From the IMG/VR virus record IMGVR_UViG_3300045918_000265, positions 1 through 22,233 of that record: a stretch of 22,233 nt of DNA; one strand, given 5' to 3'. The notes below the pieces were generated by a model. It was not told the DNA's origin and did not search any database. It saw only the letters and a program-made list of their open reading frames with translations. The DNA comes from a virus. Below are positions 18,704 through 21,460 of this stretch, one piece after another (position 1 is the first letter of the stretch; each line of letters begins with the position of its first letter). Made by a program: the position numbers and the translations under genes.

Positions 18704-20065
18704 TCAATCCATACCCCTACGCTTTATTTGTGCGTTGTCCCAGTTTGGAATTGTTCCATCGAAATGTTCAAATCGAACTTGATGGCCGATATATTTCAAG
18801 CCAACCCGCCCGAGCGCACCCTGCCGATTCTTTCCGATATACAGGTCGCTGTAATCCTTCCATTCGGTATCTGGGTTATCAACTTGCTCTGTATGGATGA
18901 AAATAATCACGTCAGCATCTTGCTCGACTGATCCACTATCCCGGAGATCAGACATTTTTGGGCGGCGAGATGTTTCTGTTTTACGCGAAAGCTGTGAAAG
19001 AAGGATGATCGCAATTCCCAATTCTTTCGCAAGCGACTTAAGACTTCTGGTTATTTCCTCAATCTGAGAATGACGCGGAGCGCGCGGATCGCTGCCGGTC
19101 ATGAGTTGCAGGTAATCCAGCACCAGCACGTCAAGGCCGTGTTTGCGCTTGTGGCGGCGTGCGTAGGTGGCAACCTGATAGAACGACAGGCCGGAACGGT
19201 CTAGGACGTGCAGAGGTATGTCCTGCATCTGCCCTGTTGCCGCTGAAATTCCAGACCAATCGTCCTGCTGTAGCTTTCCAGACAGCAACCGGCCAAGGTT
19301 CACGCGGCCAAGCGCGGCAAGGGCGCGGTCTGCAAGTTCGGCAGCAACCATCTCCATGCTGAGTACCAATACCCCATAACCTTCACGCGCGGCGTGAATA
19401 GCGTGGGTGAGCGATAGAGCGGTCTTTCCCATACTCGGGCGGCCACCCTCAACGATTACCTGCCCCCGGTGCCAGCCGCCATTCAACAGGTCGTCCAGTT
19501 CAGGGATGCCGGTAGGTATCCCTTTAGTTCCGCCTTCAAGGCGGGTTTCAAGAACATTAAAGTGCTCGCGCACAATATCTGTGATGCTGCGCGGCTCATC
19601 GGTCTTTACGCCGTCCGTGATGGATTGCAGTCGGCTTTGCGCCATATCCATCGCAACTGCGACATCCCCCTTACTGGCCACCGATGCAGTAAGCTCTGAA
19701 GCTGCCACCATGATCTGACGGCGGGTGCAGTGTTCCCGAACGATGTCGGCATATCGGCGAATATTCGCAGAACTCGGAACTTCGCTTGCCATCCTGCCGA
19801 TGTACGCCATTCCACCAGCATCGTTCAGTTTTCCATCACACTCTAAAATTTCAGCAGTGGTTATCGTGTCCCATTGTTTTCCGTGCGCGGCCTGAGTTCG
19901 TATTGCGGAATAAATTAACCGGTGAGCAAGCGAGAAGAACGCTTCTGTATCAATCTCGCCCATGCGATCAATTGCATTATTGTCGATCAGCAGCCCACCA
20001 AGAACCGACTGCTCGGCTTCAATCGAGTGAGGCGGTATCATTAATCCTAATTCGTCGTGGTTCAT
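18704..20065 (-). CDS. dnaB: Replicative DNA helicase, DnaB type
   Basis: A 453-residue hexameric helicase, close to the usual bacterial length. The N-terminal domain (13-110) starts HSIEAEQSVLGGLL, used for hexamer and primase contact. The RecA-like domain has Walker A GRPSMGKT (208-215), SMEM (236-239), Walker B VLVLDYLQL (313-321), LSQLSR (356-361), SDLRDSGSVEQDAD (372-385) and NRQG (413-416). It should unwind phage DNA at forks started at the nearby iteron origin, so the phage need not load the host helicase. The ATG at 20065 overlaps the upstream gene's stop as ATGA with GGAG upstream. Confidence 0.96.
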   Translation of the reverse strand: MNHDELGLMIPPHSIEAEQSVLGGLLIDNNAIDRMGEIDTEAFFSLAHRLIYSAIRTQAAHGKQWDTITTAEILECDGKLNDAGGMAYIGRMASEVPSSANIRRYADIVREHCTRRQIMVAASELTASVASKGDVAVAMDMAQSRLQSITDGVKTDEPRSITDIVREHFNVLETRLEGGTKGIPTGIPELDDLLNGGWHRGQVIVEGGRPSMGKTALSLTHAIHAAREGYGVLVLSMEMVAAELADRALAALGRVNLGRLLSGKLQQDDWSGISAATGQMQDIPLHVLDRSGLSFYQVATYARRHKRKHGLDVLVLDYLQLMTGSDPRAPRHSQIEEITRSLKSLAKELGIAIILLSQLSRKTETSRRPKMSDLRDSGSVEQDADVIIFIHTEQVDNPDTEWKDYSDLYIGKNRQGALGRVGLKYIGHQVRFEHFDGTIPNWDNAQIKRRGMD

Positions 20066-20823
20066 GCTGCGCTCCAGTTTGCTTCACGCTCTAAAAGTTT
20101 CCCTGCCGGAGTGAGATAATACTCACCATCACGGTTGATACTGAACACACCTAGCCAATCAGGTTTTTCACAATAATTACGGAATGCCTTACGCCAATCC
20201 TTGTACTTTTTTGGTTTCCCTTTAGCGTCCTTCCACTCCCGTCTTTTGAAAGCCTGCCAAGAGACGATTAAAACACCTTCAGGCATGGATACTTTTTCAG
20301 CCCAAGAATAAATTGGATCGTTTTCAGGAATTGGCTTCTCTCCTTTTTCAGAGCAGGTCTTCAAAAACTCATCGAACGTGATTTCACAGGTTGTTGTATT
20401 ACTCTTCTCTTCTCTTCTCTTCTCTTCTCTAGGTAACGCATCTCCCGTTACCTCACCGTTACCATTTGCGTTACTTTTTGCCTTGCTTTTTGCAACCCTT
20501 TTTGCCGTCAAACCCCGCTGTTTAGCGGTTTCTCCGTTGTGTGTATCGAAGTGAGGTAGGGTGACAGACCCGTCTTCATTGATAGCTAACCACCCGACCT
20601 TAACCATCGCATCGGCGAATCCAGCGTTACCAGATAAACGATCTATCGTTACCTTGGTAACGTATGAAGCGTTACCAGATGTGGTGTGCTGATCGAACCA
20701 GCGCCAGACTAAAAACAAACACCCGAATGCGTATGCGGGTGCAATTCCCAACAAATCCGCTATACCAATTACCTCTGGTTTATCCGGGGTGCAAGATTCA
20801 ATTTTTAGCCAATCGCCAGCCAT
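20062..20823 (-). CDS. Phage replication initiator-like protein
   Basis: A 253-residue protein before the helicase, the position of an O-type initiator or helicase loader. The N-terminal 100 residues resemble a winged-helix domain common in phage replication proteins: WLKIES, PDKPEVIGIADLLGI, FLVWRWFDQHT, GFADAMVKVGWL and HFDTHNGETAKQR. A charged linker (105-142, AKRVAKSKAKSN then REEKRREEK) follows, encoded by DNA repeats. The C-terminal part (150-250) has WKDAKGKPKKYKDWRKAF and EKPDWL, a helicase-loader-like tail. The gene holds the iteron cluster 20432-20676, as lambda's origin lies inside O. GGGGGA lies upstream. Confidence 0.8.
   Translation of the reverse strand: MAGDWLKIESCTPDKPEVIGIADLLGIAPAYAFGCLFLVWRWFDQHTTSGNASYVTKVTIDRLSGNAGFADAMVKVGWLAINEDGSVTLPHFDTHNGETAKQRGLTAKRVAKSKAKSNANGNGEVTGDALPREEKRREEKSNTTTCEITFDEFLKTCSEKGEKPIPENDPIYSWAEKVSMPEGVLIVSWQAFKRREWKDAKGKPKKYKDWRKAFRNYCEKPDWLGVFSINRDGEYYLTPAGKLLEREANWSAA
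20402..20430. repeat. Pentanucleotide (CTCTT)n microsatellite inside the initiator gene
   Basis: A 29-nt tract of nearly six CTCTT units (AAGAG on the coding strand) encodes the REEKRREEK linker. A gain or loss of one unit shifts the reading frame. It sits immediately next to the iteron cluster. Confidence 0.8.
20432..20676. other. Candidate replication origin: CGTTACC iterons in the initiator gene
   Basis: Seven exact CGTTACC sites: 20432-20438 (inverted), 20446-20452, 20457-20463, 20625-20631, 20647-20653, 20656-20662 (inverted) and 20670-20676. An eighth, 20469-20475, has one mismatch. Chance predicts well under one in this span. Spacings cluster at 11-14 and 22-23 bp, one or two helical turns. 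The longer word GCGTTACCAGAT occurs twice. Three CTTTTTGC direct repeats exactly 12 bp apart (20474-20505) give an A/T-biased stretch suitable for unwinding. The layout resembles iteron origins embedded in initiator genes. Confidence 0.7.
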
Positions 20824-20828
20824 GATGG

Positions 20829-21335
20829 TTATTTTCCCCCAATCGAATATTTTGCTTTTTTGTTTAATTTTCGAGCGATAGATAAATCAACCTCATATTT
20901 TAAGAATTCGCTCAACTTTTCCATCCCTTCAAGATCAAGCTCACGACATTTAATAGCCGCGATACCAGCCATAAACATCAATGGTTCTGAATTTTTTAAT
21001 ATTTCATTATCGGATGTAAATACATATGAAATACCGGCCAGCAAACTAGTGAAATCTTGGCGATATTCATCAGGAATTAAAAATATTAATTTATTTATAA
21101 ACTCAGAATTTTCATGTTCTTCTTGGTGACAAAATTCGCAAAGAACCACCAATTCGCTGTCGTCATATTCCCAGACGTTCCGACCCTTTACATATCGCCT
21201 ATGATGAACATGCAAGGTATCTTCATTTGATTTGCATCGCTGACAGCAGAAGTTTTGCGCATTCAGCATTTCGAGTCTGCGCTTCTGCCATTTCGGGTGT
21301 TTTAATTGATCAGAGTAACTGAGTTTTTCGCTCAT
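20829..21335 (-). CDS. HNH endonuclease
   Basis: A 168-residue protein from ATG 21335, chosen because AAAGGGG lies upstream; the longer frame lacks a ribosome site. The HNH finger has CQRC (31-34), LHVHH (41-45), the N53 region, then CEFCHQEEH (66-74), so two CxxC pairs hold the zinc and H44/H45, N53 and H70 form the active site. The C-terminal 90 residues are helical with no known domain. The gene is clearly more A/T-rich than its neighbours, suggesting separate origin, as for homing-type or recombination HNH genes. A preceding small frame overlaps it by ATGA. Confidence 0.85.
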   Translation of the reverse strand: MSEKLSYSDQLKHPKWQKRRLEMLNAQNFCCQRCKSNEDTLHVHHRRYVKGRNVWEYDDSELVVLCEFCHQEEHENSEFINKLIFLIPDEYRQDFTSLLAGISYVFTSDNEILKNSEPLMFMAGIAAIKCRELDLEGMEKLSEFLKYEVDLSIARKLNKKAKYSIGGK

Positions 21336-21460
21336 TGCATAACCCCTTTGAATGACGCACAAGGAAAGGTCGAATTACCTGCGAAGGCGGCGTAGCTGCC
21401 TGATTGGTACTTTCCCGATGCGTCAATTAAAACGGTCATTTTCTCACTTCGCAATTTCAT
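21332..21460 (-). CDS. Possible small gene coupled to the HNH nuclease
   Basis: A 42-codon frame from ATG 21460, or 35 from ATG 21439, ending in TGA that overlaps the HNH start as ATGA. The peptide begins MKLRSEKMTVLIDASGKYQS and ends with TFPCASFKGVMQ. The overlap and sense frame favour translation, which could feed ribosomes to the nuclease gene. Ribosome sites before either start are weak and no family is recognised, so this may be only a leader. Confidence 0.35.
   Translation of the reverse strand: MKLRSEKMTVLIDASGKYQSGSYAAFAGNSTFPCASFKGVMQ

Follow-up and report, generated by a model that had tools for sequence, protein, structure and literature searches.

A probable replication origin within a phage initiator gene, and the purine tract beside its iterons

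Does this phage begin its replication inside the gene for its own initiator protein? The question is raised by a viral DNA sequence of 22,233 nucleotides (IMG/VR record IMGVR_UViG_3300045918_000265; the whole stretch is called the window here), in which a short motif, CGTTACC, recurs within a single gene. At just 22 kb, the record probably represents an incomplete phage. Origins placed within initiator genes are already known, and RepA_N plasmids carry iterons within the rep gene. A sequence-only reading of the window had proposed an iteron-type origin of this sort, a proposal supported by an excess of sites, an initiator of PHROG 2509, the adjoining helicase gene, and a layout conserved among relatives. 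To judge from the sequence, the locus is very likely a theta-type phage replication origin lying within the gene of its own initiator.

Iteron sites within the initiator gene

A search of the whole window finds seven exact copies of CGTTACC and one near match, CGTTACT at 20469 (Table 1). The coordinates given earlier for these eight sites, 20432-20676, are borne out, and CGTTACC is absent from the rest of the 22,233-base window. The sites fall into two clusters separated by about 150 bp, one at 20625-20676 (cluster A; nt 148-199 of the gene, codons 50-67) and the other at 20432-20475 (cluster B; nt 349-392). Neighboring sites in the same orientation are 11, 12, 22, or 23 bp apart, in keeping with the earlier description of a spacing of roughly one or two helical turns. 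The longer sequence that had been described as repeated twice is CGTTACCAGAT, which occurs exactly twice, at 20625 and 20670, and is preceded by G both times. Two of the exact sites are inverted, and A2 and A3 together form a perfect palindrome (CGTTACC-TT-GGTAACG). Iteron A1 reads GGTAACG in the sense of the gene, where codons 50-52 specify Gly-Asn-Ala. Across the seven exact sites, all three reading frames and both strands are used.

Table 1. Features of the putative origin and its surroundings (window coordinates)
Feature	Position	Strand	Remarks
Initiator gene, 253 aa	20062..20823	-	PHROG 2509; AlphaFold2 model
Iteron A1, CGTTACC	20670..20676	+	gene nt 148; same position in most relatives
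Iteron A2, CGTTACC	20656..20662	-	gene nt 162; inverted relative to A1, 14 bp away
Iteron A3, CGTTACC	20647..20653	+	forms palindrome 20647-20662 with A2
Iteron A4, CGTTACC	20625..20631	+	holds second copy of GCGTTACCAGAT
Iteron B1, CGTTACT (near match)	20469..20475	+	iterons at nearby positions in relatives
Iteron B2, CGTTACC	20457..20463	+	12-bp direct spacing, the commonest in the family
Iteron B3, CGTTACC	20446..20452	+	exact match
Iteron B4, CGTTACC	20432..20438	-	last site; inverted; adjoins purine tract
Purine-only tract, (AGAGA)n	20402..20430	- (coding strand)	29 nt; codes for charged linker REEKRREEK
A+T-richer flank	20350..20401		62% A+T versus 45% for the window
Phage DnaB-type replicative helicase	18704..20065	-	PF03796 2e-76, PF00772 2e-28, TIGR00665 2e-115

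Because the sites lie inside coding sequence, a test of chance has to leave the protein unchanged. In dinucleotide shuffles of the entire window, CGTTACC appears 1.38 times on average and at most 5 times, as against the 7 observed. When codons are resampled from the other genes of the window, the mean is 0.64 sites and the maximum 4; when the synonymous codons of the gene itself are shuffled, the mean is 1.19 and the maximum 6. Seven sites were reached in none of 20,000 trials under either codon model. These trials bear directly on the possibility that codon bias and protein constraint, acting through GN, VT, and LP dipeptides and a charged linker, produced repeated DNA by accident. Any frame of CGTTACC does yield plausible residues, and charged linkers of low complexity are common, yet the observed count exceeds that of every synonymous shuffle and codon resampling, the sites occupy three frames and both strands, and residues 50-52 change along with the iteron in relatives (e.g., GNA becomes GHA or GRV). 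Codon need as a full explanation of the sites is rejected by the codon resampling, and the probability left to an accident of this sort is close to negligible.

The initiator, its neighborhood, and known origins

The gene that contains the sites encodes a protein matching the PHROG 2509 "replication initiation protein" (E 4.4e-55; residues 1-192 on positions 1-194 of the 277-position profile). At E 0.01, the only PHROGs matched are 2509, 9474, and 3926, and none is O-like. The initiator had been described as looking different in family from lambda O, and this holds: with no O-like PHROG and no Pfam family, membership in the lambda O family is rejected. Sequence searches of Pfam, NCBIfam, and the PDB with the initiator return no match; in Pfam neither a RepA_N domain nor the DnaT domain PF17948 (up to E 0.1) is detected.

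An AlphaFold2 model built from 41 aligned relatives (mean pLDDT 85.5) divides the protein into an N-terminal winged-helix DNA-binding domain (residues 1-118, confident over 10-118), a flexible linker (119-147), and a confidently predicted C-terminal helical domain (148-253). Confidence in the linker is low at about 120-140, and residues 126-135 mostly fall below pLDDT 50. A Foldseek comparison of the model with the PDB gives no match at E 0.001. The nearest solved folds to the N-terminal domain are generic winged helices, including plasmid initiator domains, at Z about 5; for residues 1-91 the best Z to plasmid initiator domains is 4.7 (rmsd 3.5, 81 aligned). The N-terminal winged helix of 4PT7, 4PQL, and 5KBJ, which are RepA_N-type plasmid initiator domains, aligns with the model of the window protein, for which Pfam and the PDB give no sequence match. 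Their Z scores of 4.5-4.7 are tied with those of CAP- and IclR-type winged helices and do not establish kinship, and values below 8 may reflect just a shared winged-helix arrangement in the model.

The helicase gene comes directly after the initiator gene, overlapping its end, and no separate helicase-loader gene is recognized in the window. Among relatives, DnaC-like, P-like, or other genes occupy the place of the window helicase (18704-20065). Beyond the helicase lie recombination genes: a NinB/DUF1367 gene, a gene for a Ref-like nuclease, and a resolvase-like gene. Immediately upstream of the initiator gene is an HNH endonuclease gene (20829-21362) whose A+T content is sharply unlike that of its neighbors, which suggests a recent arrival; the least stable DNA of the window (20859-21112) lies within it. 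No Rfam families are found in the window.

Copies of the 253-residue protein would bind the iterons through the N-terminal winged-helix domain, and the two clusters would be brought together across the approximately 150 bp between them. The initiator-DNA complex would then open the purine tract and the A+T-richer flank, which lie downstream in the gene. The C-terminal domain would place the DnaB helicase of the phage on the purine strand once this is opened, and the resulting fork would travel through the helicase gene. The purine strand is the one that a 5'-to-3' helicase would travel along on its way into the helicase gene. That the purine strand is the one captured we infer in this analysis only, whereas binding, wrapping, opening, and DnaB loading are postulated by analogy with lambda and SPP1 (PMC7466680, PMC6316719).

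The sequence-only reading had likened the layout to lambda ori inside O, and the likeness is apt: repeated sites inside the initiator gene, an adjoining strand-asymmetric region, and the helicase gene next. In lambda ori, which lies in gene O (also in the Stx phages, and in gene 18 of P22), the iterons are in the middle of the initiator gene, as they are here (PMC7466680). An unwinding region follows them on the coding strand, the part that the purine tract would play here, and a helicase or loader gene comes next, again as in the window. The A+T-rich part of lambda ori is purine-asymmetric, with the purines nearly all on one strand (PMC5043065). In contrast to the four 18-bp iterons of lambda, which form one array, the window iterons are 7-8 bp long and of mixed orientation, and they are arranged in two clusters, one of which lies in the codons for the DNA-binding domain and the other in those for the linker. 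The putative unwinding part of the window is a purine pentamer repeat, whereas P22 has no such tract; and the window initiator, unlike that of lambda, is not O-like by profile. Bacillus phage SPP1 oriL in gene 38, likened here by description, has direct repeats bound by gp38 within its own gene and an A+T-rich unwinding element (PMC6316719).

Conservation and iteron switching among relatives

Relatives of the initiator gene were drawn from annotated phages, viral contigs, and bacterial genomes. In 39 of 51 dereplicated genes, one 7-mer exceeds its count in 95% or more of the synonymous shuffles, and copies of these enriched 7-mers usually lie at nt 148-198 and 340-405. In 79 pooled diverse relatives, CGTTAC occurs 388 times (78.9 +/- 7.6 expected), on both strands (198 and 190 sites) and in all three frames, and 378 of the 388 sites are confined to two fixed zones, nt 140-215 (zone A) and nt 325-430 (zone B). 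In 59 of the 79 relatives zone A begins with an inverted pair, spaced 14 bp in 41 of these, and in zone B the usual distance between sites of like orientation is 12 bp. The last site has one shared orientation, that of window B4, in 66 of 71 relatives. Comparison with related phages had been proposed earlier as a way to see whether the sites are conserved beyond codon need, and they are: position, orientation, and spacing are kept across highly diverged relatives.

Conservation of this kind might also be expected if the iterons were operators through which the initiator or another phage regulator controls transcription of the replication operon, with the true origin elsewhere. The sites of an autogenous repressor would likewise be conserved beyond codon need, the initiators of iteron plasmids often repress themselves, and some phage regulators lie upstream in relatives. 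However, the sites are 140-400 nt into the gene rather than at a promoter, and they end at a minimum of stability and a purine tract that is conserved, an arrangement also seen in lambda ori (PMC5043065). The roles of origin and operator are also not mutually exclusive. Operators as the whole explanation are therefore unlikely, and an origin inside the initiator gene is the preferred reading.

In some relatives the iteron is a different sequence (GTGAC, GTCAC, GCGGAC, GTAGAC, GGGAC, GTCCGAC, or GCGCAAC). These switched-iteron relatives still show a second cluster ending at the tract, and their sites change as a set. Zone A residues track the iteron in several of them (GNA, GHA, GRV), so the protein appears to give way to the DNA. 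The residues that vary together with iteron class do not point specifically to the recognition helix, and phylogeny and the overlap of sites with codons confound this comparison. Since the sites and their reader are encoded by one stretch of DNA, origin specificity would be inherited as a unit with the DNA-binding domain; the C-terminal domain would be exchangeable at the tract, while specificity stays with the DNA-binding domain.

Several named elements share the family and the layout. The replication protein of phage epsilon15 has an AGAGA tract, but its iterons are GCGGAC and its first cluster lies at codons 18-34. The ydaU gene of the Rac prophage is a further family member, in which six GCGTTAC sites are followed by GAGGAA-type purine DNA, so that the tract is built of GAGGAA hexamers rather than AGAGA pentamers. 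Rac is reported to have an active origin, oriJ (PMC3945230); no paper was found that gives oriJ a position within Rac or ydaU. The same layout occurs in a circular phage-like element of 41 kb from Pusillimonas that is listed as a plasmid, and the GC skew minimum of this element falls within about 2 kb of the gene, a proximity confounded by gene orientation. Extra repeats stand beside the usual iterons, downstream of the tract region, at two loci: TTGACCC in L005 (nt 407-480) and TTGATGC in L007 (nt 425-475).

The purine tract and its occurrence in other initiators

Immediately past the last iteron comes CTAGAGAAGAGAAGAGAAGAGAAGAGAAGAG on the coding strand. Its 29-nt purine tract (20402-20430) lies just outside 20432-20676 and had not been noticed in the sequence-only reading. 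It is the longest purine or pyrimidine run of the window (P 0.0004 under codon resampling). The tract and its A+T-richer flank have the lowest stability among the initiator-gene positions profiled, with a local minimum of duplex stability at 20380-20429 that is 2.8 sd weaker than the window mean. On sequence comparison the tract is the most conserved part of the layout, and we infer that it serves as a strand-opening or helicase-loading element.

Among 51 relatives found by N-terminal peptide or whole-protein search rather than through the tract itself, 48 have their longest purine run starting at nt 360-430; the median length of this run in the set is 23 nt versus 13.9 in synonymous shuffles, and 24 of the 51 genes individually reach P <=0.05. 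The gap between the last iteron and the tract is 1-2 nt in 78 of 102 genes, a set that includes genes found through the tract. The tract persists in relatives whose iterons have changed, and its copy number varies among relatives.

Codon choice within the tract is strongly skewed. The arginines of the tract peptide are encoded by 147 AGR and 5 CGN codons, those in the rest of the same genes by 208 AGR and 826 CGN (odds ratio 117); the other genes of the window have 20 AGR and 174 CGN. The tract peptide spelled with AGR arginines matches in initiators, among the matches listed. Spelled with CGN arginines throughout, it has no match in IMG/VR (2.9 million viral contigs), which further counts against codon bias and protein constraint as the source of the repeated DNA; degenerate codes like those of the CGN query do match in another search tool.

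Two alternatives concern the tract only. One holds that it is a slippage repeat that switches the initiator on and off by phase variation, as the pentanucleotide CTCTT repeats of the Neisseria opa genes do. The unit is indeed five nucleotides within coding sequence and differs in copy number between relatives, but 70 of the 71 tract ORFs that do not run off their contig extend at least 40 codons beyond the tract, with no out-of-frame class. The copy number is also low, and slippage leaves the fixed position beside the last iteron unexplained, which makes phase variation very improbable. The other alternative is a signal at the RNA level (a Shine-Dalgarno-like internal start or ribosome pausing), or else simply a preferred recombination joint between domains. 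AGAGA and AAGGA repeats do look like ribosome-binding sequence, and the tract coincides with the boundary at which the C-terminal domain is exchanged. Nevertheless, ATG or GTG occurs within 14 nt after the tract in just 3 of 70 genes, as opposed to 35% of random positions, as if internal starts beside a tract resembling a ribosome-binding site were avoided, and a joint alone needs no last iteron 1-2 nt away. An RNA signal or a bare joint is distinctly unlikely, and a role for the tract in strand opening or helicase loading is preferred.

An exchange of domains can be seen at one locus (L004:1-1035), where the C-terminal domain of the window initiator stands behind another N-terminal part. A DKDKDK linker, encoded by a repeated GATAAA hexamer that follows GTAGCTAC-type repeats, connects the two, and the N-terminal part contains a seeming GIY-YIG-like insertion (by eye). 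A C-terminal domain behind a different N-terminal part points to an exchange point at or near the tract, with the DNA-binding domain traveling together with its sites.

The tract also occurs in other initiators. An exact scan of the 2.9 million viral contigs of IMG/VR for AGAGAAGAGAAGAGAAGAG gives, among the matches listed, at least 74 distinct ORFs of at least 100 codons, of which at least 53 match PHROG 9474 and at least 46 match PHROG 2509. The leading other named families at these loci, among the matches listed, are further initiator or primosomal families. Pfam domains in these ORFs include DnaT, Lin1244_N, DUF1376, and Phage_rep_org_N, and at least five proteins among the matches listed match DnaT (PF17948). 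Assignment of each protein was by reading; several are contig-edge fragments, and three matches have no long ORF. Among the matches listed, nearly all those to the DNA repeat by itself fall in phage initiator genes, which belong to several families. The bacterial genomes scanned, approximately 310 in all, comprised 12 with a known relative and 298 from a single genus; the 19-nt tract sequence has six distinct locations in them, each in a prophage initiator of the window's family.

AGGAA failed as a control for AGAGA, since it too falls in initiator genes, and its landing there turned the control into a wider finding on purine repeats. AGGAA repeats lie mostly at codons 120-150 of other initiator families (Lin1244_N in 42 of 62 distinct proteins, MARIRTIKPEFW type in others). 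At the AGGAA-repeat loci of viral contigs (L222-L301), a different purine pentamer, (AAGGA)n, thus occupies the corresponding place, codons 120-150, in the unrelated Lin1244_N and MARIRTIKPEFW initiators, and it is again found past short repeats. Protein-based searches place the tract at nt 376-388 in Lin1244_N genes and at nt 375-396 in eight of nine MARIRTIKPEFW genes, after short repeats; these searches yielded 4 and 9 distinct genes, respectively, and the run goes beyond synonymous chance individually in 5 of the 13. A GAA repeat had no matches in 99 genomes and is hence uninformative as a control.

A repeated purine-only element of AGAGA or AAGGA pentamers (sometimes hexamers), placed right after the last iteron on the coding strand, may be a general building block of intragenic phage origins. 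Such an element would be common to several unrelated initiator families and independent of iteron specificity, and it would be read by a common partner (the helicase or its loader) or as an unusual DNA structure. The generalization is tentative and slightly more doubtful than probable; if true, the element would have a place in phage origins roughly comparable to that of the DnaA-trio in bacterial oriC.

In the open-access literature, no description was found of the iteron system of this PHROG 2509-type initiator family, of its switching iterons, or of a purine pentamer tract shared across families; the part likely to surprise a specialist would be the purine tract. The system pairs a switchable iteron code with a constant companion element. 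Sequence by itself suffices to propose an origin across a large and for the most part unstudied group of temperate phages, which spans Pseudomonas, Xanthomonas, enteric, Planctomycetes, Akkermansia, and others, and the constant element would offer a DNA signature for phage origins that does not require recognition of the initiator. It raises a pointed question about the factor that reads the tract. One review calls strand opening at origins a still open question (PMC5043065), and these phages provide many natural variants for testing it.

Not every such origin carries the tract. The 18-nt purine run that follows the iterons of lambda is not beyond synonymous chance (P 0.18), and no comparable run is present in P22, 80alpha, or A118; universality is rejected by the lack of such a tract in the well-studied P22 and 80alpha origins. 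In orf20 of 80alpha (L605:3175-3400), the annotated putative origin has TAATAA-type repeats where the window's family has the purine tract, and these repeats are perhaps an alternative opening element.
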